NCBI GenBank assembly: GCA_001899635.1
Contig: MKVQ01000012.1
Coordinates: 62,001-126,000 of the forward strand
From: Myxococcales bacterium 68-20
GTDB lineage: Bacteria; Myxococcota_A; Polyangia; Polyangiales; Polyangiaceae
DNA length: 64,000 nucleotides
Direction: 5' to 3'
Each line of letters starts with the position of its first letter. The first letter of the stretch is position 1. The position numbers and the translations under genes were made by a program. The notes under the pieces are model-generated. The model searched no databases, was not told the DNA's origin, and saw only the letters and a list, made by a program, of their open reading frames with translations. Shown one piece after another: positions 22,044 through 37,312 of this stretch.

Positions 22044-23297
22044 CTAGTCGTTGTCGCCCTCGACGCGTCCCGGCAGCTCGAGGTTCAGGACGGTCACGAC
22101 CTCCGTCTTCAGCAGGCCTCCGAGCTTGCGGAGAGCGTCGTGCAGCGTCCTCGCCGCGGCGCTCTTCGCGCGGAGCTCGTCTTCGAGCTTCTGCTCCGGG
22201 ATCGCGGACAGCGCCGCATCGACCTCGGCGAGCGCGGCGTGCACGGAGGTCGCCACGCGCGCGGCACCGACACCCTCGAGCAGATCGTCGAAGCCGAGCC
22301 CCGCTCCGCCTTCACCGCAGCCGAAGAAGATCGCGCGGAAGCCGGCGAGGTTCGCGGCTAGGTGGGCGCGACCGAGCTTCGAGTGGAGCGCCTCGACCTG
22401 ATCGCCACAATCGATCGTGCACGAGCCGGTGAGCGCGAGGGGCCGTCCGACCTTCTCGTCCTTCAGCTCGACGTCGACATAGAAGAGGGCGTCCATCACC
22501 GAGTTGAGCGCGAGCTGCTGCGAGCCGTAGTGACGGCTGCCGGTGCCTGCGCTCTCGAGCTCGGCGAGGAAGTTGCCGCCGCCGGGCTCCCACTTCTGGA
22601 CGAGCGCGCCCAACCGGGCCGCGACGTCCTCGACGACCACCCGAGCGTACGCCGCGCGACGGCGCGAGAGCTCGCCGGCCTCGAGCGCCTGCCACGTGCC
22701 TCCTGCGTTGATCGCCGACGTGTCGGCGCAGGCGTTCGTCGCGCCCTCGTTCCAGAGCAGATACTCGACGGCGGCGAGCCCGCGGGTGTTGACGGCTCCC
22801 TTCGCCGCAAAGTCGGCGGCCTCGTAGCCCCGCGCGACGAGCGTCTCGTCGACGAGGCAGCGGTTCACGTTCGGCCAGGCATAGACGAGATCGCGGATCC
22901 CCTCTCCGCCGGGAGCCACCTTCTTCGCGAGGGGGCCGAACTGCATGACCTCGATGCGCTGGTAGTCGACCATCGCGTCGGCGAACGCCGTGCGCGCCGC
23001 GGTCAGCGAGGCGGCGCTCTGTTCCGACTCGTGCTGGCGAACGGCCTCGGCGAGGAGCGCCGACTTCTGCGCGGTCTTTCGATAGCCGTCGAGCGCACAC
23101 TGGCCGAACGCGCCGAGCAGCGTGCTCCGCGTGAACGAGCCGGCGTCCGAGACGAGCGTCGTCGGATCACTCGCCGGCTGCCGTGACGAGCCTTCGCTGT
23201 CGCAGCCGGGACTGGCGGCGAGGAGATACGAAGCGAGAGCCGCGCTGGCGAGAGCCGCGCAGACGACCGGGGCACTACGAGGAGAACGGGGCTTCAT
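22044..23297 (-). CDS. Imelysin-like (peptidase M75 family) lipoprotein
   Basis: The 417-residue protein has a signal ending in SPGC (Cys32) and an all-helical body typical of imelysin/IrpA-like proteins. The recognisable signature is GLAAVEYLLWN near 173-183, corresponding to the GxHxxE motif but with Ala at the His position; the DYQRIEVMQFGP segment near 111 is also characteristic. Imelysin proteins are periplasmic and often iron-regulated, with proposed roles in iron uptake; peptidase activity is doubtful for many. The gene lies 115 bases after the DUF4920 gene and 22 bases before the desaturase-type gene, all leftward. Confidence 0.88.
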   Translation of the reverse strand: MKPRSPRSAPVVCAALASAALASYLLAASPGCDSEGSSRQPASDPTTLVSDAGSFTRSTLLGAFGQCALDGYRKTAQKSALLAEAVRQHESEQSAASLTAARTAFADAMVDYQRIEVMQFGPLAKKVAPGGEGIRDLVYAWPNVNRCLVDETLVARGYEAADFAAKGAVNTRGLAAVEYLLWNEGATNACADTSAINAGGTWQALEAGELSRRRAAYARVVVEDVAARLGALVQKWEPGGGNFLAELESAGTGSRHYGSQQLALNSVMDALFYVDVELKDEKVGRPLALTGSCTIDCGDQVEALHSKLGRAHLAANLAGFRAIFFGCGEGGAGLGFDDLLEGVGAARVATSVHAALAEVDAALSAIPEQKLEDELRAKSAAARTLHDALRKLGGLLKTEVVTVLNLELPGRVEGDND

Positions 23298-23411: not shown

Positions 23412-23966
23412 CTACTTCTTGCGACCGCGCATCTCGACGCCGCTCGCCGTGAACTCGATGACCTCGGCGGATCCGTCGGCCTTCTTGCCCGGGACCTCGG
23501 CGCCCTCGTCTTCCATGTGCTGCACTTCCTCGGCCGTCATCGACGTGACCTTCGTGACGCCTTCCATGCGGACGCGGGCGCCGCGCGAGTTGAGCGGAAC
23601 GAAGAAACCGTAATCCTTGAAGCGAACGGTGAGCGAGGTCGCGGAGCGATCGTCCGCGGGACGGACATCCATCCAGCAACCCTTCTTCTGGCAGTTCTGA
23701 CGGACGACGCCGGAGGTGATGACCTTCTTGCCGCGATACGCCGTCGGGTTCGCGAGGAGCTCCTCGAAGGAAACCACCTTGCTGTTACCGAGCTCGTCGC
23801 CGAACAGCTCGAAGGGCTCCTCGACGGCGGGCGTCTCCTCCGCGGTCTCCTCGGTGGCGGCGGGCTCGCCGGCCGGGGCGCCGACGGATGCCGGTCCCTT
23901 CTGGACCTCCGTACCGCACGCGAAGAGCCCACTGAAAAGCAGAACGACGACGTGGCGAGCTTCCAT
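23412..23966 (-). CDS. DUF4920 lipoprotein
   Basis: The 184-residue protein has a short signal ending in LFAC (Cys17), an acidic Ala/Glu/Thr-rich stalk and a DUF4920 domain at about 60-150 with the key pattern GKKVITSGVVRQNCQKKGCW followed by a strand-rich FKDYGFFVPL section. Two conserved cysteines (NCQKKGC) could bind metal or form a disulphide. Function is unknown for the family, but it is exported. Starts at 23987 and 24002 are possible; I prefer 23966 because it puts the signal at the N-terminus and leaves the Fur-like box upstream. Confidence 0.85.
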   Translation of the reverse strand: MEARHVVVLLFSGLFACGTEVQKGPASVGAPAGEPAATEETAEETPAVEEPFELFGDELGNSKVVSFEELLANPTAYRGKKVITSGVVRQNCQKKGCWMDVRPADDRSATSLTVRFKDYGFFVPLNSRGARVRMEGVTKVTSMTAEEVQHMEDEGAEVPGKKADGSAEVIEFTASGVEMRGRKK

Positions 23967-24039: not shown

Positions 24040-24798
24040 ATGAACGATCCTCGATGGAAGGCGGCCGTCTCATTTGTGTTCGGGCTCTGTCTCCTCGGCT
24101 GCAGCGAGGACGGCGCCGGTCCCGCAACAAGCGCGGACGGTGGGGCGGAGCGTGACGCTCGAGGCGTCGATCCGTTCTGCCGGACGCGCCCGCGGCTCTC
24201 GTTCTGTGAAGACTTCGACGAGGGCCCACTGCCGGGACGCTTCGTGCGGATCGAGGGGAACCCCGAGATCGTGAGCCTCGCGCCGAACACGGACGCGCCT
24301 TCGGCCCCGAACGCGGTCCAGATCGCTCACTCGCCGTCGGCGACCGACGCGCGCCTCGTGCTCCAAGGCGCGCGAGGTGCAAAATACAACTTGTTCTTCT
24401 TCGTGAGGCTCGAGCCCGGGCACGGGCGCCTCGAGCTCGCCGGCTTCGACGATGGCGACTATCACCTCGAGATCGGCGTAGGGGAGGACAACCGCTGGTA
24501 CGTGGAGGAGCGTCCCGGTCCGGTCGATGGCGGCACGCCGACGACGCGAACGCTGGCTACGACGGTCGAGCCCGAGCTCTCGACGTTCTCCAGCGTGCGC
24601 TTCGACGTCTACGTCGACGGCGCGGGCGTCGGTCACATGCGCTTCCGCTCGGGCGATAGCGTGGTGTTCCAGAGCGAGCCGCTCACCTTCGGCGATGGGA
24701 AGACCACGCTCACGCCGACGATCTACGTCGGTGCGCGTCTCCGTGTCGGCGCGCCGTCGTCAGTGTGGCTCGACAGCGTGTCGGTCGGCGAAGACTGA
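24040..24798 (+). CDS. Lipoprotein with a lectin/LamG-like beta-sandwich, function unknown
   Basis: The 252-residue protein has a signal ending in LLGC (Cys21), a short Asp/Gly-rich stalk, and a beta-rich body whose start CRTRPRLSFCEDFDEGPLPG and end SSVWLDSVSVGED are the pattern of concanavalin/LamG-like domains found in many myxobacterial lipoproteins. I do not see catalytic residues. The ribosome-binding site GGGAG lies 8 bases upstream of the ATG. It is divergent from the DUF4920 gene and shares the A/T-rich promoter region with the Fur-like box. Confidence 0.75.
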   Translation: MNDPRWKAAVSFVFGLCLLGCSEDGAGPATSADGGAERDARGVDPFCRTRPRLSFCEDFDEGPLPGRFVRIEGNPEIVSLAPNTDAPSAPNAVQIAHSPSATDARLVLQGARGAKYNLFFFVRLEPGHGRLELAGFDDGDYHLEIGVGEDNRWYVEERPGPVDGGTPTTRTLATTVEPELSTFSSVRFDVYVDGAGVGHMRFRSGDSVVFQSEPLTFGDGKTTLTPTIYVGARLRVGAPSSVWLDSVSVGED

Positions 24799-26407: not shown

Positions 26408-27868
26408 GTGGACCAGAACGAAGCTCCAGTCCTCGACGCACTGGACGAATACCACCGGCGCGAGCGCTACGGGTTCACGCCTCCAGGACACCGGCAGGGC
26501 CGAGGTGTCGACGAGCGCACGCTGCGCACGCTCGGCATCGACACGTTCCGCAACGACGTGCTCGCGAGCGCCGGTCTGGACGATCGCTCCCGGGGCAACC
26601 GCTACCTGGAGAAGGCGCAGCAACTCATGGCGGAGGCGGTCGGCGCGAAGAAGACCTTCTTCTCGACCTGCGGCAGCTCGCTCTCGGTGAAGGCAGCCAT
26701 TCTCGCCGTCACTGGCGGGACCGGAGACATCCTCATCGGCCGGGACGCGCACAAATCCGTGACCGCCGGGCTCATCCTCTCCGGTCTCCAACCGCGGTGG
26801 GTACGGCCGCGGTGGGACGACGAGCTGCACCTCGCGCACCCGCCGTCGCCGGAGAGCCTCGAACGGATGTGGCAGCGGCATCCCGACGCCGCTGCTGCGC
26901 TGATCGTGAGCCCGACGCCATACGGCACCTGCGCCGATCTCGAGGCGATGGCGGAGATCTGTCACGCCCGAGGCAAGCCGCTCATCGTGGACGAGGCGTG
27001 GGGTGCTCACCTGCCGTTCCACGACGACCTCCCGACTTGGGCCATGGATGCCGGCGCTGACATCTGCGTCGTGAGCGTGCACAAGATGGGGCTCGGGTTC
27101 GAGCAGGGCTCCGTCTACCACCTCCAGGGATCGCTCGTTGACCCGACCCGGCTCAGCCAATGTGCCGACCTCCTCTCGACGACGAGCCCCAACGTCCTCA
27201 TCTACGCAGCCATCGATGGGTGGCGCCGTCAGATGGTCCAGAAGGGAGAGGCGCAACTGGGTCGCGCGCTCGAGCTCGCTGGTCGCGTGCGTCGAAGAAT
27301 CGAGGATCTGCCGGGACTGCACGTGCTGCGCGACGAGCTCCTAGGCGTAGAGGCATCGCATGACCACGACCCGCTACACGTGCTGATCGACGTCGAGCGG
27401 CTCGGGATCAGCGGCTATCGAGCGGCGGACTGGCTCCGGGACAACTGCGGTATCGACATGGGGATCTCCGATTCCCGACGCATCGAAGCCACGATGTCCC
27501 TCTCGGACGACGAAACGACGACCGATCGCCTGCTCGAAGCGTTGAAGGCGCTCATCGCGGCGGCTCCGAGCATTCCGTCGCCGTCGCGGGTCGAGCTCCC
27601 CACGAGCTCGGATCTGGAGCTGGAGACGGTGCTTCTCCCGCGCGACGCGTTCTTCGGTCCGGCGGAGGTCATCCCCACGGAGGAGGCAGACGGACGGATC
27701 GCCGCCGAGCAGGTCACGCCCTATCCGCCCGGCATTCCGGTGATCCTGCCGGGCGAGCGAATCAACCGCAACGTCATCGAGTACCTACGCACGGGTGTCG
27801 AGGCCGGCATGGTGCTTCCCGACCCTGCCGATCCCTCGATGCAGACGATCCGCGTGGTGCAGCAGTAG
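26408..27868 (+). CDS. Orn/Lys/Arg decarboxylase (group III, PLP-dependent)
   Basis: The 486-residue enzyme has the fold-type I signature of bacterial basic amino acid decarboxylases: TPPGHRQG near 24-31, STCGSSLSVKAAI at 86-98, VDEAWGAHLPFH (Asp195, His201) and SVHKMG with Lys226 as the PLP-binding lysine. The C-terminal part (TPYPPGIPVILPGERI) is also typical. It lacks the N-terminal wing domain of the E. coli CadA/SpeC type and resembles the shorter Gram-positive SpeA/YaaO type. The product would be agmatine, cadaverine or putrescine; the exact substrate is uncertain. GTG 26408 is the only good start. Its stop is one base from the stop of the convergent gene. Confidence 0.93.
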   Translation: MDQNEAPVLDALDEYHRRERYGFTPPGHRQGRGVDERTLRTLGIDTFRNDVLASAGLDDRSRGNRYLEKAQQLMAEAVGAKKTFFSTCGSSLSVKAAILAVTGGTGDILIGRDAHKSVTAGLILSGLQPRWVRPRWDDELHLAHPPSPESLERMWQRHPDAAAALIVSPTPYGTCADLEAMAEICHARGKPLIVDEAWGAHLPFHDDLPTWAMDAGADICVVSVHKMGLGFEQGSVYHLQGSLVDPTRLSQCADLLSTTSPNVLIYAAIDGWRRQMVQKGEAQLGRALELAGRVRRRIEDLPGLHVLRDELLGVEASHDHDPLHVLIDVERLGISGYRAADWLRDNCGIDMGISDSRRIEATMSLSDDETTTDRLLEALKALIAAAPSIPSPSRVELPTSSDLELETVLLPRDAFFGPAEVIPTEEADGRIAAEQVTPYPPGIPVILPGERINRNVIEYLRTGVEAGMVLPDPADPSMQTIRVVQQ

Positions 27869-27869
27869 C

Positions 27870-29660
27870 TCAGCGGATGGGGTCGAGCGGCGTCTCGACG
27901 AGCTTCCGCTGGGCCATGCCACCGGGGTACGCGTAGCTCGCGTAGCTGTCCCAACCCCAGATCGTTGCCGTGAACGGCCCCTCGCTCCGCATGCGCTGAA
28001 GGCCGTAATGGCAGACGCTCGTGCCGAACGTATCGCCCGGGCCCTTGTTCCGAGAGAGGTCGACCCGGACGAACTCGTACTCGCCCCGCGTGCCGATGGG
28101 CTTCCACCCCGTCAAGTTGCCGGCGCACTCGAGCCAGACGTCCTTGAACTCGCCCCGGGTCTTCGCGCGCACGACGACGAGCGACGTCTCGGAGTAGGTC
28201 GGGTCCGCATAGAAGCTGTAGGCGTTCAGATATTGCCCCGCGGGAACGACGTTGACGAACTCTGGATCGCCCCGGCCCGCATAGCCCGCTCCGACCTCCC
28301 CCGTGCCTGCGCCTCCGGTCATGTGGGCGGATAGATAGATTGGATGGTCGACGTCCTGCGTCCGAACGACAAATGCGTCGCCCGTCCCCGAATAGAACGT
28401 CGCGAGCTCGCCGGCGGACATGGTCGTCGGGGCGCCGGGCGGCACTGCGGGATCGTAGTCGAGGCGCGTCCCGTCCCGCGCCGCGACGATACGATACGGC
28501 ACGGCCTCGTGCTCGTTGCCGAGCCGTGGGCGATAGCCGACGCCGACGTATTCGGATCCCCATTGCTCGAACGCCGGGATTTGTTGAGCGACGATGTCGC
28601 CGTAGTAGTGGTTCGCCGGAATGTTCGCGCAGGCGTTTCCGCCGATCGTCGACGTCGGCTTGTTCGAAGTGACGATGCTCCCGGTCAGCTCTTGGCCTTG
28701 GACCAGTTGCAAGAATTGCCCCTTGCCGAGGCGGTACGTTGCCGGCACGCGTGCCGGACTACTCGCGACGTCCTTGCCTCCCACAATGGCGAGGGTCGGA
28801 AGGATCGTCACTTCGGTGTCGTCCTCGGATGCGAGGATTTGCGCCGATGGACCACCGACGCCGAGCCCCCAGCCGTTGACGAGAATGTGCTGCTTCGCCC
28901 AGCTCGCGACGGGCAGGACGAGCGTGGCCGTGGGCTGAAAGCTCTTGGCTCCGCCGAACGGATAAATCGTGGAGACGGCCGCCGGCACGGTCGTCTTCAG
29001 GTGAAACGCGGAGCCGCGCGCCGTCCCGCTGAGGATGCCACGGACGATCGTGGTGGCGACGGCGCCCTCGGGGCAGGGCACGAACGTCGCCTCCCACGAT
29101 GGGAGTGGAACCGTCGGATCGCCATCCGACAGGAACAGCGACACGCTCTCGTTCGGGGGGATGGGCCCGACGTGCGGCGTCAACGACGCGTCGCCCGGAT
29201 TCAAGCGGAAGATCGACTTCGAGATGTCGATCTCTTTCCCGTCGAGCTCGAGCGAGACCTCGATCGGCTGGGTCGACGGATTCACGATGTACGCGGCGTA
29301 GCAAGACGGAGCGGTGAGCGCTGCAGCCGCCGGCGGAGCCTGGAGATAGAATTCGCAGCCGTTCGAGCTCTTGTCGGCGGCGGCGGCGGCGCAGGGCTCC
29401 TGACACAGTCCGGCGCCGCATGCGAGCTCGGGTCGGCACATCTCGACCACACTGCCGGTACAGGTGTCGATGACCGAGCGGCCGTCGAGCGAGCACTGGA
29501 ACAGGCAGCTCGGCGCGTCCGCCCCGGCATCCACCACGAAGGTTTGCTCGCGGCGGACGAACCCGCCTCGATCGTTGCCGCAGGCGCCCAGAAACGCCGC
29601 CGAGATGGTCGGGCCGAGAATCGCCGCCACCGCTCCGAGCGAGAGACGCACACGCGTCAT
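27870..29660 (-). CDS. IgGFc-binding-type lipoprotein
   Basis: The 596-residue product has a signal ending in LGAC (Cys27), a short Cys-containing segment (residues 45-100), and a long beta-rich domain matching the IgGFc-binding family (about 200-560), with recognisable segments ILASEDDTEVTILPTLAIVG, YRLGKGQFLQLVQGQELTGS and GGNACANIPANHYYGD. The name comes from mucin-like animal proteins; in bacteria these are surface proteins, presumably adhesive, with unknown ligands. The start codon overlaps the stop of the RCC1 gene (ATGA at 29657-29660). It is the last gene of the long leftward operon. Confidence 0.88.
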   Translation of the reverse strand: MTRVRLSLGAVAAILGPTISAAFLGACGNDRGGFVRREQTFVVDAGADAPSCLFQCSLDGRSVIDTCTGSVVEMCRPELACGAGLCQEPCAAAAADKSSNGCEFYLQAPPAAAALTAPSCYAAYIVNPSTQPIEVSLELDGKEIDISKSIFRLNPGDASLTPHVGPIPPNESVSLFLSDGDPTVPLPSWEATFVPCPEGAVATTIVRGILSGTARGSAFHLKTTVPAAVSTIYPFGGAKSFQPTATLVLPVASWAKQHILVNGWGLGVGGPSAQILASEDDTEVTILPTLAIVGGKDVASSPARVPATYRLGKGQFLQLVQGQELTGSIVTSNKPTSTIGGNACANIPANHYYGDIVAQQIPAFEQWGSEYVGVGYRPRLGNEHEAVPYRIVAARDGTRLDYDPAVPPGAPTTMSAGELATFYSGTGDAFVVRTQDVDHPIYLSAHMTGGAGTGEVGAGYAGRGDPEFVNVVPAGQYLNAYSFYADPTYSETSLVVVRAKTRGEFKDVWLECAGNLTGWKPIGTRGEYEFVRVDLSRNKGPGDTFGTSVCHYGLQRMRSEGPFTATIWGWDSYASYAYPGGMAQRKLVETPLDPIR

Positions 29661-31033
29661 GGCATCACCACTTCCTGCGGAACGAAACTCGGTATCCGGA
29701 GCTTTCCGTTGCCGAGCTGTCCGTAAAAGTTCGTTCCCCAGCAATACACTTTGCCGCTCGTCAAAAGGGCACACGTGCTGTTCGGCGTCGTCCTCACCTG
29801 GGCGGCGGGAGCGGGAAGCCCCCGGACCTTCACGGCCGCGGGCGCGTAGTCCGTCGTTCCGTCGCCGGCCTGGCCACTCGCGTTGTTCCCCCAGCAGTAG
29901 ACGGCACCCGACGCCGCGACCGCGCACCATCGCTGGTGTCGCTCGATGGTGTCCCCGGTGCCGACGGTGCGCGTCGTGGCGATCTGGACGAGCGGCTCAG
30001 GGGTGACGACCGGCTCGGGGAGCGCGCGGTCGAGGTTCGGATGCTTGGGATTCGATGAAGCGACGGCGCCCCAGCAGTAGCCCGTCCCACCGGCAGTCGC
30101 ACATGCGTTGTCGCCGGCGACATCCAGCGATGAGACGTGCTCCAACACGATCGGGCGCGGCCGTGGCTCGGGGAAGCGCGACGACACACGCGCGAGCGGA
30201 GGATTCGCTCCCCAGCTCAAGGTCGTGCCGTCCGTGCGGAGGGCGAACGAGGCCACGCCCACGTGGATATCGCGGATCGGCGCGCCCGCAGGGACCGGGA
30301 CCGAGCGAGGAGGCACGATCTTCCCCGCAGAGAGCTCGTCGAGCGGCGCAATCTGAGCGGCCTTGTTCTTTCCCCAGCAGAAGACGCCGTCCTCGACGAC
30401 GGCACATCCGGTCTCCGTTCCCATGCCCACGCGTTTCGCGGGAGGGATCGACATCTTCACCGGCGCGCGTTGGTGACTCGCGGTGCCCGCGTCGCCGGGA
30501 AGATTCGGTCCCCAACACCAGACGGCTCCGCTCTTGTCGAGAGCGCACGTGTGATCGAGCTGCACGACGTCCGAAAGACCGCGGACGAGTGCGGGAGTCG
30601 CGTCGTCCGCGCTCCCCGCGTCCTCCCCCCGCCCGAGCTGGCCGGCCTGGTTCGCGCCCCAGCATGCGACCGTGCCGTCGTCGAGCAGCGCACAGAAACC
30701 CTCGCCACGATCGACCGTGCCAGAGCTAACGAGCGACTCGTCGGCCCCGAGGGTCGTCACGAGCGACCGGGCGCACGGAGGAGTCGCGCAGTCGATCGGG
30801 AGAGGTCCGCCGTCGAACCACGGACGTGACGTCGCGTCGGCCGGCCCTGCATCTTCGGGGTGCGAAGCGTCGTCCGTCGTCACAGACGTGTCCGCGCCGC
30901 CATCGGAGGGCGCGCCTCGTGCGGTGCCGTCCTCATTCGAACAGCTCGCGCCCGCGCCGATTGTCGCCAAACAACCGACGACAGCAAGCGCAAAGAAGGA
31001 ATGCCCATCAAGGAGTCGTTTTATGAAGCGCAT
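29657..31033 (-). CDS. RCC1-repeat lipoprotein
   Basis: The 458-residue protein has a signal ending in GASC (Cys31), an Asp/Ser-rich stalk, and seven RCC1-type blades of the cysteine variety common in myxobacteria, for example CALLDDGTVACWGANQ, CAVAASGAVYCWGNN and CALLTSGKVYCWGTN. These should fold into a seven-bladed propeller for protein-protein contacts on the cell surface. The start at 31033 lies 26 bases inside the end of the upstream gene, with GAAGG just before the ATG. The downstream IgGFc-type gene overlaps by ATGA. Confidence 0.9.
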   Translation of the reverse strand: MRFIKRLLDGHSFFALAVVGCLATIGAGASCSNEDGTARGAPSDGGADTSVTTDDASHPEDAGPADATSRPWFDGGPLPIDCATPPCARSLVTTLGADESLVSSGTVDRGEGFCALLDDGTVACWGANQAGQLGRGEDAGSADDATPALVRGLSDVVQLDHTCALDKSGAVWCWGPNLPGDAGTASHQRAPVKMSIPPAKRVGMGTETGCAVVEDGVFCWGKNKAAQIAPLDELSAGKIVPPRSVPVPAGAPIRDIHVGVASFALRTDGTTLSWGANPPLARVSSRFPEPRPRPIVLEHVSSLDVAGDNACATAGGTGYCWGAVASSNPKHPNLDRALPEPVVTPEPLVQIATTRTVGTGDTIERHQRWCAVAASGAVYCWGNNASGQAGDGTTDYAPAAVKVRGLPAPAAQVRTTPNSTCALLTSGKVYCWGTNFYGQLGNGKLRIPSFVPQEVVMP

Positions 31034-32345
31034 AACCTTCACCGATCGCCCAGATATTGGAGTTGGACGTGCCACGAATTTTGTAAAGGCGTCGATCGAG
31101 CGGCCCACTAGGCTGCGACACTCGCGAAAGCGAGTAGCTTCCGCCATCCCAGACGTCGTTCCCGCGAAGGACGAAGCCGCCCCGTCCGCTGAGCCACGCA
31201 TCTCGCCCGGTGGCCCACAGCGAGGTCACGGGGCCCAGAAACGTCAGCGAAGAGTCCAAGTTCGAGATGTCGACCGAATAGCCATCACCGTCGACCGATA
31301 TCCTGAGGGCGTCGATGCCTCCTTTGAGCCCGATGAACTGCCCCGGCGCCACTGCCTGGATGTCGGCGAGCCATCCGCGCTCGCCCAGAAAGATGGCTCC
31401 GGCTCGCTCGGTGCAGGACAAGGTATCCTTGCTCAGCACGCCGTCCGCGATGCGTCGATACTCTCCCCCGGTTTTCCGGACGACGAGTGCGCACCCATAA
31501 CTGCTCCGGGCCCTCGCCCCGGTGAACCAGACGTCGTCAGGGTTCGTTCCCGCCGCTCCCGTGAAGTAAAGGTGCTCGTCGAAGTCGTGCCTCCCGTCCG
31601 GCGCTGCCGGATCGTTTGCGACGTACTCCAAGACCCACCCCGGCGCGCCGCCGTCGACGCTCTTCCAGTGGTAGATCGAGTTGGTGAACCAGGCGTAGAC
31701 GTCGTTCGCGCTCGTCCCCCACACTCCGAGCGCCGGTGCGCGAAATGGCGATCGATCATATGGAGATCGATCGTATGGATATCCATCCTCGAGATTTACA
31801 CCGCGGTCGGGGTGGCTACGATCTTCGAGCTCATGTCGCGTCCACGACCACGTCGTCGCGGGCGCGATCGGACGCGAGCCGTGGAAGATGTAGCCAGGCG
31901 CTACCCCGTAATAAACCTCATCCTCGTTCGGTGCCCAAACCTTGCCGACGTAGGAGACGCTCGTGAATTCATGTTGCGAGCCGTCATCGATGTACGCCCA
32001 CGTTTGCTCGCTCTCGTTCCATTCGAGGACCTTGACGCCGAGCGTCGAGCTCTCGGCGATAGCGAAGGCGCGCTCGCCGACCGGCCAGATATCCCTCATG
32101 ACGAGGTCCGGATCGGGCAGTGCGGTCACGCACCAGCCCGCGTTGCTGCACGTCGATTCCGGGGCGGCGCCCTCGGTCTCTGCGTCCCTTTCGGGAGCTC
32201 CGCCGTCCGGGACCGCGGTCTGTCCGCCATCCGACTCGGGTTCGCGGACCGGGTTCGTTTCGTCTCCCGACGCGGCACACGCCAAGAACGCGGACGCGCA
32301 GGCCAGGGAGACCCAGGTGCATGCGAGGACATGTGCGCTTCTCAT
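31008..32345 (-). CDS. Propeller-like lipoprotein, function unknown
   Basis: The 445-residue protein has a signal with two possible lipoboxes (SLAC Cys16, FLAC Cys23), an acidic stalk and a repetitive beta-rich body with motifs such as IWPVGERAFAIAES, VWGTSANDVYAWF and LWATGRDAWLSG, which are typical of the secreted VWAVG-type propellers of myxobacteria. A short tandem repeat, PYDRSPYDRSP, lies near residue 190. It starts in an ATGA overlap with the upstream propeller gene and ends 26 bases into the RCC1 gene. Confidence 0.85.
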   Translation of the reverse strand: MRSAHVLACTWVSLACASAFLACAASGDETNPVREPESDGGQTAVPDGGAPERDAETEGAAPESTCSNAGWCVTALPDPDLVMRDIWPVGERAFAIAESSTLGVKVLEWNESEQTWAYIDDGSQHEFTSVSYVGKVWAPNEDEVYYGVAPGYIFHGSRPIAPATTWSWTRHELEDRSHPDRGVNLEDGYPYDRSPYDRSPFRAPALGVWGTSANDVYAWFTNSIYHWKSVDGGAPGWVLEYVANDPAAPDGRHDFDEHLYFTGAAGTNPDDVWFTGARARSSYGCALVVRKTGGEYRRIADGVLSKDTLSCTERAGAIFLGERGWLADIQAVAPGQFIGLKGGIDALRISVDGDGYSVDISNLDSSLTFLGPVTSLWATGRDAWLSGRGGFVLRGNDVWDGGSYSLSRVSQPSGPLDRRLYKIRGTSNSNIWAIGEGYALHKTTP

Positions 32346-33529
32346 GGCTTTCCTCCGAGGGAAAGAAGCACTCCTTCCCCACCGACCCAGACGTGCCCTG
32401 GCGAAGCGACCCACACGGTATTGAGTTTCGGGCGGTTCCCTCGGAGCCCCGCGATCTTCACGCGCGACCAGCTCGTGCCGTCGTAGTGCAGGACGACGCC
32501 GGCGTTCCCGACTGCCCAGACGTCGGAGGCCGACGATCCCCATACTGCGTTGAGTGCTTCGTTCGTCGGGACGTCCGAAACGACGTCCCAGAGGTCCGGG
32601 TCGCCGGTGTAGTGCCGGACGGTCCCCGCGACGCCGACGGCCCACGCTTCGGACGCGGAGGCGGCCCAGACGCCGGTGAGCGCGTTCCACGTCTGCGTGT
32701 CGAATGCTTTCGTGCTCGGGGTGTCGCTCTCGGCGTTCGTGATGCGAACCGCCTCGCCTGCCATCCCCACCGCCCACAGGTCGTTCGCCGAGGCTCCGTG
32801 GATGCTCGCCATCTGACCGCACCGGAGGGTGGCGCAGACGTCCGACGCTATCCCGGGACCGAGCTCGAACGTCGACGAAGGCGACAGGCGCAATCGCCAA
32901 AGGCCGGCATCCTGTTGTCCATCGTAGGCCGCCAACCAGAACGACGCTGCGCCGGGAGCTCCCCATCCCGATCTGAGGTGAATGTAAAACTGAATCGAGA
33001 ACTCGTACTCGGGTGGCGGCGTTGCCTTGTGGAAGGTCCAGCCGTCCGAGGAGGGCGGGGCGCCACCGTCGACGTGGAGACCGCGTGCATAGATGCGCGT
33101 CAGAGAGGCAAGCGATACCTCTTCGGAGTCGCGCAGCCACAGAGCCCGCAGTGTCTCTCCGCTTCCCGGCTCGAGGCGTCTCCATGACGTGCCGTCGAAG
33201 TGCACGAGCGCCCCGAGCGCGCCCGCAGCCCAGACATCGCTGGCGGAGCGCCCTCGGATCACCATGATCTGCCTCACCGGATCGATGCTCCCGCCGGCCG
33301 TGCCGGGGTCGAACGGACCGTTCGAACAGAGTGCATCGGGAGTGCACTCGTCTGGAAAGTACTCGCAATCGGCACATGGGCCCGCGGCTTCGCGCGGCGC
33401 GCCGTCTGCGCCCCCGTCATCGCGCGAGTCCGGCACGAACGACGGCTCGTCCGAGGGGCCCTCGCTCGGCAGCACCTCCGTCGATGCGCACGCCGTAACG
33501 CCGACGAGGCATATCAGCCATCGGTTCAT
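32342..33529 (-). CDS. Propeller-like lipoprotein, function unknown
   Basis: The 395-residue protein has a short signal ending in VTAC (Cys14), a small Cys-rich stalk (ADCEYFPDECTPDALC) and repeated blades with the pattern SDVWAAGALGALVHFDGTSW, NDLWAVGMAGEAVRI, SEAWAVGVAGTVRHY and SDVWAVGNAGVVLHYDGTSW. These W-A-V-G repeats form beta-propellers in many secreted myxobacterial proteins. It overlaps both neighbours by ATGA (33526-33529 and 32342-32345), so translation is probably coupled. Its ligand is unknown. Confidence 0.88.
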   Translation of the reverse strand: MNRWLICLVGVTACASTEVLPSEGPSDEPSFVPDSRDDGGADGAPREAAGPCADCEYFPDECTPDALCSNGPFDPGTAGGSIDPVRQIMVIRGRSASDVWAAGALGALVHFDGTSWRRLEPGSGETLRALWLRDSEEVSLASLTRIYARGLHVDGGAPPSSDGWTFHKATPPPEYEFSIQFYIHLRSGWGAPGAASFWLAAYDGQQDAGLWRLRLSPSSTFELGPGIASDVCATLRCGQMASIHGASANDLWAVGMAGEAVRITNAESDTPSTKAFDTQTWNALTGVWAASASEAWAVGVAGTVRHYTGDPDLWDVVSDVPTNEALNAVWGSSASDVWAVGNAGVVLHYDGTSWSRVKIAGLRGNRPKLNTVWVASPGHVWVGGEGVLLSLGGKP

Positions 33530-34734
33530 CGCGTCTCTCCTCCGTCGGGCGCGGTTTGCTCACAAGGCTCGACGACGCACCGACCGCCGACACACGCTTG
33601 GCCGGCGACCGCATCGCACGCCCTCCCGCAAGCGCCGCAGTTTCGCGGATCACTGTCGGTGTTTACTTCGCAACCGTCCGCGAGGTTGCCGTTGCAGTCA
33701 GCCGCGCCCTGGCGGCAGGCGTGCGTGCATACGCCAGACGAACAGACGGCATCGATGTTCTTCGAGTTGGCGAATTCTCTCTCGATGGCACAGCTGACAC
33801 CGCAGACCCCGCAGGAGCCCATGTTCGAAGACAGATCGACGCACTGGCCCTGGCACGACTCGCCGAAGCACAACGTGTCACACCACGTTTGGCCCTCGGG
33901 GCATGCGCAGGCGTAGCGGTCTTTGACGATGTCGAACTTGCATTCTTGTCCCGCGCCGCATTTGTTGCCGCAGGCGGCGCAATTGTCCTTCGTATCGAGG
34001 GCAGCTTCACATCCGTTGGATGGATCGCCGTCGCAATCAGCATATCCGTGGTTGCATTTGGCGCGCCCACACTGAGCGTCGACGCAGCCGAAATATCCGT
34101 TCGCAGGCGGAGGACCGCCATCGCCAGCGTCATCGCTGTTGCAGACGTTGCCGCATGTTCCGCAGTTCTGGTCGTTTTTCTTGGGGTCGACGCACTCTCC
34201 GCTGCAGTAGATCGTGTCGCCCACGCATCCACATCCGAATTCCTGCGTCTGAACGTTGCGGGGGACGCAAGGCTTGGCCGGATCCGGACATTTGTCTCCG
34301 CACGCATTGCAATTGTCGTTGCTGCCGGGAGCGGTTTCGCAGCCGTTTTCGTCGAAGCCGTCACAGTCGAACAGTCGCGGCTTGGAGCTACATTGCAGGA
34401 CGCAGCGCCCTTCGATGCATTCGTACGTTCTTGCGCGAATGGTCGGACACGCGTGACCGCACTCGCCGCAGTTTTTCCTGTCCCGCAGCAGGTCGACGTC
34501 GCACGGGAAACGCGAGTTTTCGCACGTCGTGAATCCCTTGGGGCACTTGTTCGAGGGGCAATACTCGATGAGCCCCGCTTCTTCCGGAACGACTACCGCG
34601 GCGTCCTCGTTCGTGAAGGACGGCGGAGGGTCGTTCACGTCCACGCGCCCGACGACGTCCCGCGTGCTGGTACATCCCGCTGCCGCGGCCCACGCCACTG
34701 CGAGCGCGCAAGCCACCAATGCTCGAGCTTTCAT
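33526..34734 (-). CDS. Cys-rich repeat lipoprotein
   Basis: The 402-residue protein has a signal ending in AAGC (Cys21) and a body with more than forty cysteines arranged in repeats such as NCGECGHACP, NCGTCGNVCN, NCAACGNKCG and NCGACGRACD, with DCDGDPSNGCE-type segments between them. Such modules are frequent in large secreted proteins of Polyangia and are probably disulphide-stabilised stalks or binding modules. It begins the run of five coupled lipoprotein genes, 51 bases after the membrane TPR protein gene. Confidence 0.88.
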   Translation of the reverse strand: MKARALVACALAVAWAAAAGCTSTRDVVGRVDVNDPPPSFTNEDAAVVVPEEAGLIEYCPSNKCPKGFTTCENSRFPCDVDLLRDRKNCGECGHACPTIRARTYECIEGRCVLQCSSKPRLFDCDGFDENGCETAPGSNDNCNACGDKCPDPAKPCVPRNVQTQEFGCGCVGDTIYCSGECVDPKKNDQNCGTCGNVCNSDDAGDGGPPPANGYFGCVDAQCGRAKCNHGYADCDGDPSNGCEAALDTKDNCAACGNKCGAGQECKFDIVKDRYACACPEGQTWCDTLCFGESCQGQCVDLSSNMGSCGVCGVSCAIEREFANSKNIDAVCSSGVCTHACRQGAADCNGNLADGCEVNTDSDPRNCGACGRACDAVAGQACVGGRCVVEPCEQTAPDGGETR

Positions 34735-34785
34735 CGAAACAGTCTCCTGAAGAACACTGATGACCGCGCGGCTCGCTCGGCCGCC

Positions 34786-35520
34786 TTACGGCTCTGAATG
34801 CTTTTCCTCGCCGAGCACCCGACGGCATCGCGCGGCGCCGGCCTGCGCCTGGACGGACAGCGCACCACCGGGCCGGCTCGACAGCGCGCGCTCGTAGAGT
34901 GCCAACGCGCCTCGCGGATCCCCGAGGTGCTCGAGGCGAAGCGATGCGAGGGCGACGGTCGCTGCATACGACTCGTCGACCTGCGAGCCCATGACACGTT
35001 CGTAGAGCGCCGCAGCACGCGCCCATTCGCGTTGCCCGCGGGCACGATTGGCCTCCGCCAGGAGGTCGGAGGCCGTCTCTCGCGGGCGGGCGCTCGGATC
35101 GCTCACCTTCGCCGGAGCGGGTGCGGTAGACGGCGACGGCGCCACGGCGTTCGGCAGGGCGTCGACCGACACGGAGTCGATCGTCGCCGGCGCGGTCGGC
35201 GCCGAGTCGATCGCCGGCTGCTCGGGCGTGGCGATGATGGAGCTCGCAGGTGCAGCGGCGATCGTCGGACCGGCACACGTGCCGTCCACACACTCGCTCG
35301 ATCGCACGCTGTAGGCCAGGCCGAGGACGGCCAGCGCGCCGCCCACGCCGGCGATCGCGAAGAGCGATCGCGAGCTCCGAAGCGCCAGCCCCGTGCCGGC
35401 GGTCGGGAGCGCCCGATCGACGATCTTCGACGCGAGCGCTTTGGCCTCGTCGGTGGCGAGAGGCGACGCGGGCCCCGCTTCACTGTCCAGCTCGAAGGCG
35501 TCGAGCCATTCCGGCTTCAT
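34786..35520 (-). CDS. Membrane-anchored TPR-like protein, probable partner of the adjacent sigma factor
   Basis: The 244-residue protein has a cytoplasmic N-terminus of about 50 residues, one membrane helix (about 51-71), a Pro/Ala/Ser-rich stretch and a C-terminal TPR-like helical part (about 155-235: AEANRARGQREWARAAALYE, AALALYERALSSRPGGALS-type periodicity). The layout (N-terminal cytosolic segment, single helix, external domain) and the ATGA overlap with the sigma gene suggest an anti-sigma factor or signal sensor. The usual zinc anti-sigma motif is not visible, so the role is inferred from context. Confidence 0.75.
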   Translation of the reverse strand: MKPEWLDAFELDSEAGPASPLATDEAKALASKIVDRALPTAGTGLALRSSRSLFAIAGVGGALAVLGLAYSVRSSECVDGTCAGPTIAAAPASSIIATPEQPAIDSAPTAPATIDSVSVDALPNAVAPSPSTAPAPAKVSDPSARPRETASDLLAEANRARGQREWARAAALYERVMGSQVDESYAATVALASLRLEHLGDPRGALALYERALSSRPGGALSVQAQAGAARCRRVLGEEKHSEP

Positions 35521-36110
35521 CGCGAGTCTCCCTCTTTCGCGTCCATCTGGCGACGCAGATGCTGCATTCCCAGACGCAGGCGGCTTCGGGCCGTCTCGAG
35601 CGGCACGTCCATCTCTTCGGCGACCTCGGCGGCGCTCATGCCGAGCACGTGGTGGAGAACGACGGTGAACCTCTGCTCGACCGGCAGCGCGTCGAGGGCA
35701 GCAGCGATGCGTGTGCGCGTCGCGTAGGCGCCGGCGACGTCGTGGGGCGCCGCCACGTCTTCTTCGACCTGAGGGGACTCGTGCCGGGCACGGCGCCGCT
35801 GCCGGCGAAGCTGGGCGAACGTCGCGCGAACGACGACGCGATCGACCCACGCCTGGAACGAGCCCGTCGGGCGATAGCTCGGAAGACTGTGGAGGACGGT
35901 GACGAGCGCCTCTTGAGTGACGTCGTCGATGTCGCTGCTTCGCGTGAGGTAACGGACGAGGTTGCGAACCCTGGGCAGCAGCTCCAGGGCGAGCTCCTGG
36001 GCCGCCGCACGATCGCCGCGCGCCGCCGCTTCGATCCGCCCCTGCGGCCGCTCGGCGGACGCGAGCTCGATCCGAGTCGGTGACGTCAAGGCAACGTTGC
36101 CCACGTTCAT
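35517..36110 (-). CDS. ECF-type RNA polymerase sigma factor
   Basis: The 197-residue protein has sigma region 2 at about 30-100 (RVRNLVRYLTRSSDIDDVTQ, then EALVTVLHSLPSYRPTGSF) and region 4 at about 135-187 (ALDALPVEQRFTVVLHHVLG, AEVAEEMDVPLETARSRLRL). The IDDVTQEAL segment is the conserved -10-recognition helix. It is the second gene of the long leftward operon and overlaps the TPR-protein gene by ATGA. I prefer the ATG at 36110; one at 36131 would add seven residues. Confidence 0.92.
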   Translation of the reverse strand: MNVGNVALTSPTRIELASAERPQGRIEAAARGDRAAAQELALELLPRVRNLVRYLTRSSDIDDVTQEALVTVLHSLPSYRPTGSFQAWVDRVVVRATFAQLRRQRRRARHESPQVEEDVAAPHDVAGAYATRTRIAAALDALPVEQRFTVVLHHVLGMSAAEVAEEMDVPLETARSRLRLGMQHLRRQMDAKEGDSR

Positions 36111-36193
36111 ACAAGGATCGGCGCGACGCAAATCGGGTCATCGTCGCCGTACGATTTCACGCCGAGCACAGCCGTAGCCGCGCACGCCGGCGC

Positions 36194-37312
36194 CTACCAG
36201 GCCGGGCCGAAGTCCAGCGAAGCGCTGAGATACGGTTGAAGCGGCCAGAGCGCGAGCTCTCGGACGTCACGCCCACCCGGGCCCTCGTAGCTGAACGCCG
36301 GAGGGAAGAAGACGAAGTCCGCGCCGACGCCGATGGCCACGCGCGGCCACGAGCGATGAGGCGCCCACGCGATACGTGCCTCCGGACCGACGTAACCGTG
36401 GACGTTGACCTGCGACGCGCTCGCCACGAGGCGCGCGACACGCGGCCGTGTGGAGCGGAGGAAGAGCGCGACGCCCGCATGAACGTCGAACGTCGCGGTC
36501 ACCTGCTCCCCGAGCTGCCAGCGGCCCCCGGCAAACACGCCGAAGGTATGGCGGCGGATGAGGAGCGAGCCGACCGAATCGCGACGCACGTCGGTGACTC
36601 CGAGCGTCAGCGCAGCACCGCCCTCGAAGGTACCGCGCGCGAGCCCAAGACGATGGCTCACGGCGGCGGACGGCGTCGCGTGAGCGACCACGGCCCGGGC
36701 GCCGACCGCGGTGAACGGTGTCCACGCGGCGTGCGGCTCGCGAGCGACTGCCTCGACGGGCGCCTTGGGCGCCGCCGGCGTGCGCGTCACGACGGGCGCA
36801 TCGAGCGGCGCCGGCGCATCACGAGCGGGGGATGCCTCGGGCTCATCGACCGCCGGGCCCTCGATCGGGCGACCGATGGGCTCGCCGGCGAGGAGCGACT
36901 GCAAGACGTCCCTCACGAGCAGGCTCGACGTCTCGAGCATCGCGGACGGCGACCCTGCCCCCTGATCGACACGGTGAACGAACAACCGGCGTGCCCGCGG
37001 GTCCGTAACGAAGATCGTGATGTCCCCGCGAGCGGCGACCACGAACCAGACGACCGCGCGCGCGCCGTAGGAACGGGCGACGACGTCTGCGCGGGCCTGC
37101 GCCGCCTCGGCGTCCGGCTCGATCGGCTCGGGCACGCGTACGATCGTCAGTGGCAGGTCGCTCGTTTGCCCGCGGACCCGCTCGAGCACCGCGTCGGCGA
37201 CCGGGCGATCGACTCGGACGACGCAGACCATCGACTCGGCTCGTGCGATCGATGTCGTCACGAGGACGAGTAGCCACGCAGCGAGCGCCATCCAAAGCCC
37301 GCGCGCCGCCAT
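36194..37312 (-). CDS. Exported protein with probable outer-membrane barrel domain
   Basis: The 372-residue protein has a signal peptide (about 1-25, ending ARAES), an N-terminal alpha/beta domain (about 28-150), a Pro/Ala linker (about 155-195) and a C-terminal part of alternating amphipathic strands ending in YLSASLDFGPAW, with an aromatic final residue as in outer-membrane barrels. It lies 83 bases before the sigma gene on the same strand and is likely the first gene of the operon. It could be the surface sensor or export partner; this is inference. Confidence 0.75.
   Translation of the reverse strand: MAARGLWMALAAWLLVLVTTSIARAESMVCVVRVDRPVADAVLERVRGQTSDLPLTIVRVPEPIEPDAEAAQARADVVARSYGARAVVWFVVAARGDITIFVTDPRARRLFVHRVDQGAGSPSAMLETSSLLVRDVLQSLLAGEPIGRPIEGPAVDEPEASPARDAPAPLDAPVVTRTPAAPKAPVEAVAREPHAAWTPFTAVGARAVVAHATPSAAVSHRLGLARGTFEGGAALTLGVTDVRRDSVGSLLIRRHTFGVFAGGRWQLGEQVTATFDVHAGVALFLRSTRPRVARLVASASQVNVHGYVGPEARIAWAPHRSWPRVAIGVGADFVFFPPAFSYEGPGGRDVRELALWPLQPYLSASLDFGPAW

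Follow-up and report, generated by a model that had tools for sequence, protein, structure and literature searches.

About 128 diverged copies of an operon of an ECF sigma factor, a membrane TPR protein and five lipoproteins in a Labilithrix-like genome

The eight-gene operon described here, found in a 64-kb window (the whole stretch of DNA analyzed, 64,000 nt), belongs to a set of about 128 diverged copies within its genome. As the best explanation we propose, with somewhat more confidence than doubt, a repertoire of about 128 self-tuned operons of two modules, where a sensor module A (barrel, ECF sigma factor, and TPR protein as the presumed anti-sigma factor) controls via a relay the five-lipoprotein module B; the same joint estimate applies to module A as a cell-surface signaling device across Polyangiales. 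The lipoproteins of module B probably form one outer-membrane complex, placed, as judged from the sequences, behind many different A modules within one genus. No description of a comparable repertoire was found in the accessible portions of the open-licence literature searched.

The operon occupies positions 27870–37312 of the minus strand (all coordinates below are on this strand, those of genes including stop codons). The ORF coordinates confirm eight co-directional leftward genes with the junctions listed in the first-pass annotation, that is, from the barrel to the IgGFc gene, a gap of 83 nt, an ATGA overlap, a gap of 51 nt, and overlaps of 4, 4, 26, and 4 nt. The first gene (36194..37312, 372 aa, no Pfam match) encodes an exported protein, a presumed sensor barrel of a second, minor family. 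Then follow the ECF sigma factor with an ATG start (35517..36110, 197 aa; Pfam and TIGR02937 matches) and, joined to it by the ATGA overlap, the single-pass membrane TPR protein, presumably an anti-sigma factor (34786..35520, 244 aa). The lipoprotein genes encode CysR, a Stig1/MXAN_6577-like cysteine-rich protein (33526..34734, 402 aa); two propeller-type proteins, PropA (32342..33529, 395 aa) and PropB (31008..32345, 445 aa, no Pfam match); an RCC1-repeat protein (29657..31033, 458 aa), overlapping PropB by 26 nt; and an IgGFc_binding (PF17517) protein (27870..29660, 596 aa).

The 11.89-Mb genome carries 128 CysR-to-IgGFc cassettes, together covering 9.6% of its length, and a separate scan of the same genome yielded 129 CysR. 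After collapsing overlapping stop-to-stop ORFs by HMM envelope, all five lipoproteins were found in order in 115 of the 128 cassettes. An ECF sigma gene lies directly upstream in at least 121 cassettes, as sigma genes were placed by HMM with 150 of 280 candidates scored (a retrained gene finder still overlooked some); in seven of the 128 the block has no co-directional sigma gene. PF17517 has 141 matches in this genome and none in 14 control genomes. The copies are diverged, with median identities of 0.20–0.40 and maxima of 0.60–0.90, and even the closest ones differ by approximately 10% or more at the protein level. An assembly artefact was ruled out, the genome being 98.4% complete with 4.2% contamination and the copies far from near-identical.

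The junctions seen in the window recur among the paralogues: 4-nt overlaps at PropA (103/115 cassettes) and IgGFc (72/115), and the 26-nt overlap at RCC1 (51/115), all these counts meaning that such a start exists, perhaps not as the only one, since the start pickers are biased towards an overlap of about 4 nt (for the TPR ORF, also towards a membrane helix). The choice of Prop2 starts was poor, with the 4-nt overlap in 41 of 109 cases versus 71 of 78 in an earlier tally. Because the junctions recur in paralogues, the arrangement is more than chance, and the proposal of a single co-directional unit is supported.

Co-variation of the genes across cassettes separates the two modules. Mantel correlations, assessed with 40 permutations, are 0.71–0.83 between the lipoproteins, 0.42 for sigma–TPR, 0.40 for barrel–sigma, and 0.36 for barrel–TPR, while between the sensor and lipoprotein modules they range from –0.04 to 0.08. 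The sigma factor and a lipoprotein have a common nearest paralogue in only 2–5 cases out of 97. In 30 pairs of cassettes whose IgGFc proteins are at least 0.75 identical, the median sigma identity is 0.28, compared to 0.30–0.31 in lower bands (100 permutations for this comparison). There is, however, some counter-signal: among the 41 pairs whose sigma factors are at least 0.6 identical, IgGFc identity has a median of 0.55, compared to 0.40 at sigma identity below 0.4, and the sigma–CysR correlation, 0.08, slightly exceeds the largest permutation value, 0.07. For the N-terminus of CysR, the correlation is weak with sigma (0.09) and higher with mature CysR (0.21). Hence, the modules are nearly, not totally, independent. 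The tight co-variation of the lipoproteins is as expected of the parts of a complex, in line with the initial suggestion of one.

The junction of the modules is formed by the CysR linker and the IgGFc stop codon. In close pairs of cassettes, homology ends between –16 and +86 nt from the IgGFc stop in 22 cases out of 23, and begins +120 to +237 nt into CysR in 19 out of 23; in the pair with C6_31611 the CysR start was miscalled and the 5′ edge is unreadable. Between the window cassette and its paralogue C33_112950, homology begins at +203 in CysR and extends to –16 relative to the IgGFc stop; paralogue alignments place the reassorting five-lipoprotein block of the window at 27870..34563, from the CysR codons for YCPSNKCP to the IgGFc stop. 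The block edges are sharp, and strong gene-level mosaics within blocks are absent (0/103), so that blocks seem to be exchanged or copied between loci as a whole. This pattern, as well as the shared flanks at two of eight G003 loci described below, would also suit a repertoire resembling antigenic variation, with few cassettes expressed at once and block exchange altering the surface. We regard this as improbable, as gene content reveals no single expression site, 121 of 128 cassettes having their own sigma gene and 115 all five lipoprotein ORFs, and the distance of approximately 10% or more between the closest copies implies that block exchange is not recent.

Conservation of the gene order in relatives, which had been put forward as a test, is observed in G003 and in Labilithrix ACE_MYX7. 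At eight of the 16 G003 loci both the sigma factor and the IgGFc protein match one G000 cassette, with similar identities (59–92%); of these eight, two share a flank and six do not. The cassette was seen in one genus only, with 0 to 129 copies per genome, and in none of the 20 PF17517 regions sampled from nine genomes outside the genus. PF17517 itself is matched in 213 of 377 genomes of the phylum Myxococcota in a presence test with six candidates scored per genome; two other genome surveys were also presence tests, with 17 and 10 candidates scored per genome. The variable copy number and the missing shared flank in six of eight orthologous cassettes could point to a selfish proliferating gene cluster of little benefit to the host. 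This seems to us very doubtful: the eight conserved operon genes include no known mobility gene according to Pfam, omega is 0.14–0.43 in 15 of 16 orthologue gene comparisons, and of the 141 matches to PF17517 only two, each of them a fragment, contain a stop. The remaining comparison, PropA of L150 (omega 0.77, dN 0.70), was set aside as a misalignment. The orthologue pairs tested are thus under purifying selection.

The window sigma factor exceeds the curated cut-offs for regions 2 and 4, as an ECF sigma factor should: Sigma70_r2 scores 46.2 bits (cut-off 24), Sigma70_r4_2, 46.0 (25.7), and TIGR02937, 83.3 (42.9). An ORF immediately follows sigma in all 121 copies, with the ATGA overlap in 99 and one predicted membrane helix in 108. 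The TPR assignment made at first holds in part: a Pfam TPR match is present, but it falls under the curated cut-off. The claim of a sigma factor paired with a single-pass membrane protein lacking the zinc anti-sigma motif stands, HxxxCxxC being found in none of the 121 ORFs after sigma. According to a study of anti-sigma factors, Hx3Cx2C is used to call zinc-binding ASDIs and is not obligatory for every class I anti-sigma factor (PMC7406223). As is expected of an ASDI, the TPR protein is co-encoded and co-varies with its own sigma factor (r 0.42), the nearest neighbour being common in 49 of 97 cases. Class I anti-sigma factors have a sigma-binding four-helix domain at the N-terminus. TPR-like repeats are typical of scaffolds, and no anti-sigma domain model matched the TPR protein in Pfam and a further profile search, as would suit an assembly or scaffold protein, with sigma controlled in some other way. 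Given the constant position after sigma, the frequent translational overlap, the single predicted helix, the co-variation, and the recurrence of the same pair outside cassettes, a scaffold role instead of an anti-sigma one appears unlikely.

A short motif, [VIL]x[VIL]xxLP, read from the translation as VSVDALP in the window (35152..35172), lies in the part of the TPR protein that is presumed to be periplasmic. It is present in 57 and absent from 51 of 108 TPR proteins, compared to a mean of 4.1 and a maximum of 9 in shuffled sequences. A looser LP pattern (103/121 real, shuffle mean 61.85) was discarded in favor of the strict one.

A barrel-family exported ORF precedes sigma in 100 of the 121 sigma-bearing copies. 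The model of a main-family member (351 aa, pLDDT 82.8) has an OmpA-like eight-strand barrel with an extra N-terminal domain (residues 30–117, beta-alpha-beta3-alpha). Foldseek matches it to OmpA/OmpX/OmpW-type proteins (E 2.2e-7), and comparison with OmpW gives Z 17.7 with rmsd 2.7 over 168 residues, the PDB matches being dominated by the barrel part; the barrel profile had no significant match among PDB sequences (best E 0.38). The window protein belongs to the minor family, common to cassettes C48_75602 and C27_180353, and by its position and the main-family model may be an OmpA-like barrel as well. The barrel model also weakly matches chains of ribosome hibernation factors; judging by topology, these matches probably concern the N-terminal domain.

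The barrel–sigma–TPR triad is a separate, probable signaling module, order-wide in Polyangiales. Outside complete cassettes, 19 triads were observed, 12 with a lipoprotein gene within 300 nt downstream and seven without one; L205 was excluded, lowering the former count from 13, as what the rule had taken for a lipoprotein there was the barrel protein's own signal peptide. The LP motif is found in only one of 16 triads outside cassette-like loci. A sensor so often adjoining a lipoprotein gene might serve envelope quality control, reporting the delivery of lipoproteins to the outer membrane in an RseA- or Rcs-like manner and responding to internal assembly state instead of external ligands; the combination of an OmpA-like barrel, a lipoprotein, and an inner-membrane regulator recalls RcsF–OmpA–IgaA (PMC7553776, PMC4942254). 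We rate this explanation as rather unlikely, since one common regulator would suffice and 121 private sigma factors, nearly independent of lipoprotein lineage, are left unexplained.

All five cargo proteins of the window have a lipobox visible by eye. Pfam supports Stig1 for CysR and RCC1 repeats for the RCC1 lipoprotein. CysR matches NF041328 (MXAN_6577-like) in five stretches with 58 bits, below the curated cut-off of 100, and is not assigned to that family. The IgGFc protein covers PF17517 fully (positions 1–297 of 297, E 2.6e-100, 336 bits, gathering threshold 25.6) and belongs to it; its AlphaFold model (pLDDT 87.3) is nearly all beta, with no confident Foldseek match in PDB and no significant match of its profile to PDB sequences (best E 0.64). 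PropA has only a sub-threshold Pfam match to the Rax2 propeller, and the candidate propeller fold of PropA and PropB is suggested by repeat motifs spotted by eye. The mature N-terminus of CysR carries a tag, C...[LIV]G, read from the translation as CTSTRDVVG in the window (34648..34674); it is present in 50 of 84 CysR, absent from 34, and found in 4–13% of the other four lipoproteins.

Gapped words, k-mers, and ZOOPS applied to 99 regions upstream of barrel starts revealed no ECF-type promoter motif clearly above control regions, and footprints of close cassette pairs were uninformative or blurred, the starts being uncertain. TAGNNTC is enriched upstream of the barrel gene (17 of 53 TAG sites versus 4.6% background). 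As TAGNNTC/TG is also the commonest such element before 297 non-cassette genes (30/95), TAGNNT was rejected as an ECF site and read as a general –10 element. A sigma-70 scan of the window gave one site on the opposite strand, with 0.6 expected.

Under the preferred reading of relay-controlled two-module operons, the TPR protein would hold sigma at the inner membrane, and the N-terminal domain of the barrel would be periplasmic, connecting the outer membrane with the TPR protein as in FecA–FecR or OmpA–RcsF–IgaA. The CysR tag and the TPR motif may be strand-like peptides docking on the barrel relay, so that the state of the lipoprotein complex would decide sigma release. Released sigma would boost its own operon, each surface complex being tuned separately, and reassortment would yield related surface complexes with different inputs and regulators. 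Counting against this reading are the lack of a shared ECF promoter motif, the incomplete independence of the modules, the many CysR and TPR proteins devoid of the tag or the LP motif, the near absence of that motif from triads outside cassette-like loci, the seven triads with no lipoprotein gene close by, the sub-threshold TPR match, and the seven blocks that have no co-directional sigma gene. A more tentative possibility is combinatorial surface recognition by about 128 complexes, nearly all with a private sigma/anti-sigma sensor, the pairing of sensor and complex being shuffled by block movement. The 6.9-kb lipoprotein block would then move intact, from the CysR-linker junction to the last stop codon. 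Receptors would in this way diversify separately from their wiring, rather as in a receptor-repertoire system.

If the two-module reading is true, a single repertoire of surface complexes, reassorting and each under its own regulation, takes up approximately a tenth of a bacterial genome. Its 121 natural pairs of sigma and TPR proteins offer material for the study of signaling specificity, and natural recombination uncouples regulator from output, making the wiring directly testable. It also provides a lead on the role of PF17517 and RCC1 lipoproteins in myxobacteria, and a possible OmpA-barrel signaling triad common in Polyangiales.

Among known systems, the SusC/SusD loci of Bacteroides are likewise numerous paralogous operons for surface lipoproteins, and each has an ECF sigma/anti-sigma pair to itself. 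Unlike these, the present operon has no TonB-dependent barrel among its eight genes and has five fixed lipoproteins, and regulator and cargo reassort. The IgGFc protein has the same domain as other Myxococcota PF17517 proteins, but, unlike those sampled outside the genus, sits in a five-gene cassette; CysR differs from NF041328 proteins in its length (about 400 aa versus a 145-position model) and in opening a five-gene block. FecA–FecR–FecI comprises an outer-membrane barrel with a periplasmic N-terminal signaling domain, a single-pass inner-membrane regulator, and an ECF sigma factor (PMC9249621). Module A is similar in having a barrel with a separate N-terminal domain (in the modeled member), a presumed single-pass regulator, and an ECF sigma factor. 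It differs in the eight-strand OmpA-like barrel of the modeled main-family member, compared to the TonB-dependent receptor with a plug in Fec (no Pfam match to such a receptor among the eight window proteins), in lipoprotein cargo instead of a transporter, in overlapping sigma and regulator genes, and in 121 sigma-bearing copies per genome. In Escherichia coli, OmpA and IgaA are reported to compete for RcsF (PMC7553776, PMC4942254). The two systems have three types of part in common, here known as co-encoded genes: an eight-strand barrel (in the modeled member) that bears a soluble domain, a lipoprotein, and a regulator at the inner membrane, for which the TPR protein is the candidate here. 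Unlike Rcs, where the soluble domain of the barrel is C-terminal, here it is N-terminal, no kinase or receiver domain of an Rcs-type phosphorelay was matched among the eight proteins, the output is an ECF sigma factor, and the genes form one operon.

The eight genes of the operon (window 27870–37312, minus strand) and their junctions, confirmed from the window sequence, lie as the first-pass annotation had placed them, while its interpretation as a self-regulated, stoichiometric surface complex is supported only in part. Domain searches back the assignment of an ECF-type sigma factor, a cysteine-rich protein and RCC1 repeats, find the complete IgGFc_binding domain (PF17517) and give a weak match for the TPR region; lipoboxes, read by eye, are present in all five cargo proteins (CysR, PropA, PropB, RCC1, IgGFc). 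Past IgGFc lies a convergent gene whose end, at 27868, is separated by one base from the IgGFc stop at 27870. By eye, the window also seems rich in non-cassette lipoprotein genes (22044–23297, 23412–23966, 24040–24798 and 54663–57434), the last being a 923-aa lipoprotein-like ORF on the minus strand.

The real interest of the operon is that it belongs to a genus-limited, very large repertoire built of two modules, a sensor triad (barrel protein, sigma, TPR protein) and a block of five lipoproteins; we are highly confident of the anatomy and modularity of this cassette family. In the window's own genome, a DNA search that scored 40 of 611 first-look candidates yielded 91 matches and PF17517 yielded 141, of which 137 span the whole model, with no PF17517 matches in 14 control genomes. 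To cover all these places, 136 stretches were fetched and annotated with profiles made from the first 40 copies. Of the 141 IgGFc ORFs recovered, 128 belong to loci running from CysR through IgGFc, and the other 13 are fragments or lie in other contexts; an independent CysR-alignment search found 129 copies (150 of 209 candidates scored). All five lipoproteins occur in the same order in 115 of the 128 cassettes, and 121 have a co-directional sigma gene immediately upstream. The remaining seven, classified partly by eye, have an oppositely oriented sigma/TPR pair (two), a Hanks-type kinase gene (one), a contig edge (one) or nothing recognized (three). The kinase gene, named by eye, replaces the triad upstream of a complete five-lipoprotein block (L017, C42_280368). 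Two variant cassettes, L191 (C1:29000–38000) and L194 (C40:171500–180500), consist of the triad, CysR, one propeller and RCC1, with a different last lipoprotein in place of IgGFc.

The cassettes are spread over 35 of 52 contigs, 21 of them in nine tandem runs, and span 1.147 Mb, or 9.6% of 11.89 Mb; their G+C content (0.671) is nearly equal to that of all fetched DNA (0.676). As the median amino acid identity among copies ranges from 0.20 (barrel) to 0.40 (CysR, IgGFc), they form an old, diverged family. One in-frame TGA occurs in each of three CysR copies (C16:137038–138216 and C16:116647–117831 in this genome, C161:92065–93231 in the relative G006), possibly decaying copies or assembly errors. 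The genome contains at least 150 matches to the sigma-factor model TIGR02937; for Sorangium cellulosum So0157-2, 109 sigma factors are reported (PMC3696898).

An ORF follows the sigma gene in all 121 cassettes, with a 4-base overlap in 99, and has one predicted membrane helix in 108, starting at residues 50–75 in 94 of these, the ORF selection having preferred starts at –4 and the presence of a membrane helix. The zinc anti-sigma motif, said earlier to be lacking in the window TPR protein, is absent throughout (HxxxCxxC in 0 of 121). One family of exported, probably barrel-forming proteins precedes sigma in 100 of 121 cassettes; the window copy and two others have a second exported-protein family there. 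The model of a main-family protein (L015:5537–6589; pLDDT mostly >90, whole-chain mean 82.8) begins with a signal helix and a beta-alpha-beta3-alpha domain, which a proline-rich linker joins to an eight-stranded barrel, the latter matching OmpA, Ail, NspA and OmpX in Foldseek (E 2.2e-7 and weaker), with the best Z for OmpW (Z 17.7, rmsd 2.7, 168 residues). Since both ends of OmpA-type barrels lie in the periplasm, the extra N-terminal domain of the modeled protein should be periplasmic.

Two short peptide signatures, both read in the window copy, recur in the family. Of the 84 CysR copies with a located lipobox, 50 carry a tag, [LIV]G at +3 to +11 from the lipidated cysteine of the mature protein (shuffled control mean 13.9, maximum 23), while the other four lipoproteins have it in 8/101, 13/100, 8/105 and 4/109 copies. 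The LP motif, [VIL]x[VIL]xxLP, is found beyond the membrane helix of 57 of 108 TPR proteins (shuffled mean 4.1, maximum 9), typically 42 residues past the helix (median; interquartile range 38–46).

The modules vary almost independently. In Mantel-type distance correlations (97 copies with seven genes aligned, 40 permutations) r is 0.71–0.83 among the lipoproteins and 0.42 between sigma and its TPR partner, whereas sigma or the TPR protein correlates with any lipoprotein at 0.01–0.08, only sigma–CysR (0.08 vs. 0.07) exceeding its own permutation maximum (0.05–0.13 over all comparisons). The barrel protein follows sigma (0.40) and the TPR protein (0.36), not the lipoproteins (–0.04 to –0.01; 80 copies). 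The nearest paralog is shared by sigma and the TPR protein in 49 of 97 copies, among lipoproteins in 43–59, and across modules in 2–5. Median sigma identity is 0.28 in the 30 pairs whose IgGFc identity is 0.75 or higher, compared to 0.30–0.31 in lower bands. Conversely, median IgGFc identity is 0.55 in the 41 pairs whose sigma factors reach 0.6 or more, compared to 0.40 where sigma identity is under 0.4, and thus some inheritance of whole cassettes remains.

Fast evolution of sigma does not account for this near independence. In the relative G003, 16 of 20 fetched regions carry both sigma and IgGFc matches. At eight of these loci both point to the same cassette of the window's genome with similar identities (sigma/IgGFc 83/85, 70/67, 77/90, 65/71, 79/77, 92/92, 64/62 and 59/59); in two of the eight, L162 and L163, a short stretch of flanking DNA is common to that cassette region or a tandem neighbor (flanks up to 2.5 kb). 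At the other eight sigma and IgGFc point to different cassettes; L147, L149 and L160 are ambiguous, with low or mixed best matches, and at four of the clear loci sigma is only 26–38% identical to the sigma of the block's partner.

The boundary between the modules is visible in DNA. In 19 of 23 close pairs homology begins +120 to +237 nt past the CysR start, the remaining four being homologous upstream as well, and in 22 of 23 its other edge falls between –16 and +86 nt relative to the IgGFc stop. At base level, in two of three pairs shown, the onset is near the YCPS codons of CysR. No strong mosaics between the five block genes were seen in 103 copies, by a rule under which only partners at ≥75% identity count, which suggests that either the block moves whole or selection for matched partners removes mosaics. 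Sensor tracts in 15 high-sigma pairs shown end at CysR +54 to +174 in four and at –9 to –48 in four; in others they continue into CysR or end earlier. The CysR N-terminus correlates weakly with sigma (r 0.09) and a little more with mature CysR (0.21; 76 copies).

Within the genus, the CysR alignment at E 1e-30 matches eight of 12 genomes, with 129, 38, 11, 4, 2, 1, 1 and 1 copies, and none of the other four. Eight of 108 genomes of the family are matched, all in this one genus of 48; among 183 genomes of the order there are 12, and the four extra, from another family, are weak matches. The five-lipoprotein cassette was not found in 20 PF17517 regions of nine genomes outside the genus. First-look PF17517 counts in 377 genomes of the phylum are 144 in the window's genome and at most 27 elsewhere among the matches listed, with 47 in G003, absent from that listing; three genomes of the same class but another order (G446, G321, G436) have 23–27 each. 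The barrel family, in turn, is matched in 50 of 58 relatives, one of them being G005, where CysR has no match. Among 20 barrel regions chosen outside complete cassettes (10 from the window's genome, 10 from five others), 19 have the sigma/TPR pair (overlap –4 in 18, –8 in one); a lipoprotein gene lies within 300 nt in 12 of 19, with the tag in nine of 12. Excluding cut or variant cassettes (L188, L191, L194), the tag is present in eight of nine and the LP motif in one of 16. Thus the sensor is more widespread than the five-lipoprotein cargo, and is probably older. At one such triad (L195, C3:233500–238796) a 412-aa lipoprotein with the tag follows, having a VWA-like MIDAS motif by eye.

Searches of open-licence literature yielded no paper joining IgGFc-binding with myxobacteria or IgGFc with a sigma factor, and no title or abstract opening among the papers listed describes such a cassette system. 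Between species, omega is 0.14–0.43 in 15 of 16 gene comparisons over three cassettes, one being excluded as misaligned; thus no gene-wide positive selection is seen, and the genes are under purifying selection. The TPR protein and CysR genes lie close together, the median gap being 13 nt and 45 of 103 gaps ≤0, and sigma and the lipoproteins seem to share one transcript, which makes activation by sigma of its own operon plausible; motif searches found no promoter evidence for it. A TAGNNT element upstream of genes generally in this genome looks like its common –10 box.

We slightly favor the signaling mechanism proposed for the sensor and lipoproteins, and more tentatively consider recognition as a possible purpose of the repertoire. 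As the eight genes include no TonB-type receptor, unlike FecA–FecR–FecI, and no phosphorelay gene, unlike RcsF–OmpA–IgaA, the operon belongs to neither system. Still, the proposed signaling would follow the same logic as FecA–FecR–FecI (PMC9249621) and RcsF–OmpA–IgaA (PMC7553776, PMC4942254), where RcsF passes through barrels (PMC4942254) and is reported to be the object of competition between OmpA and IgaA (PMC7553776).
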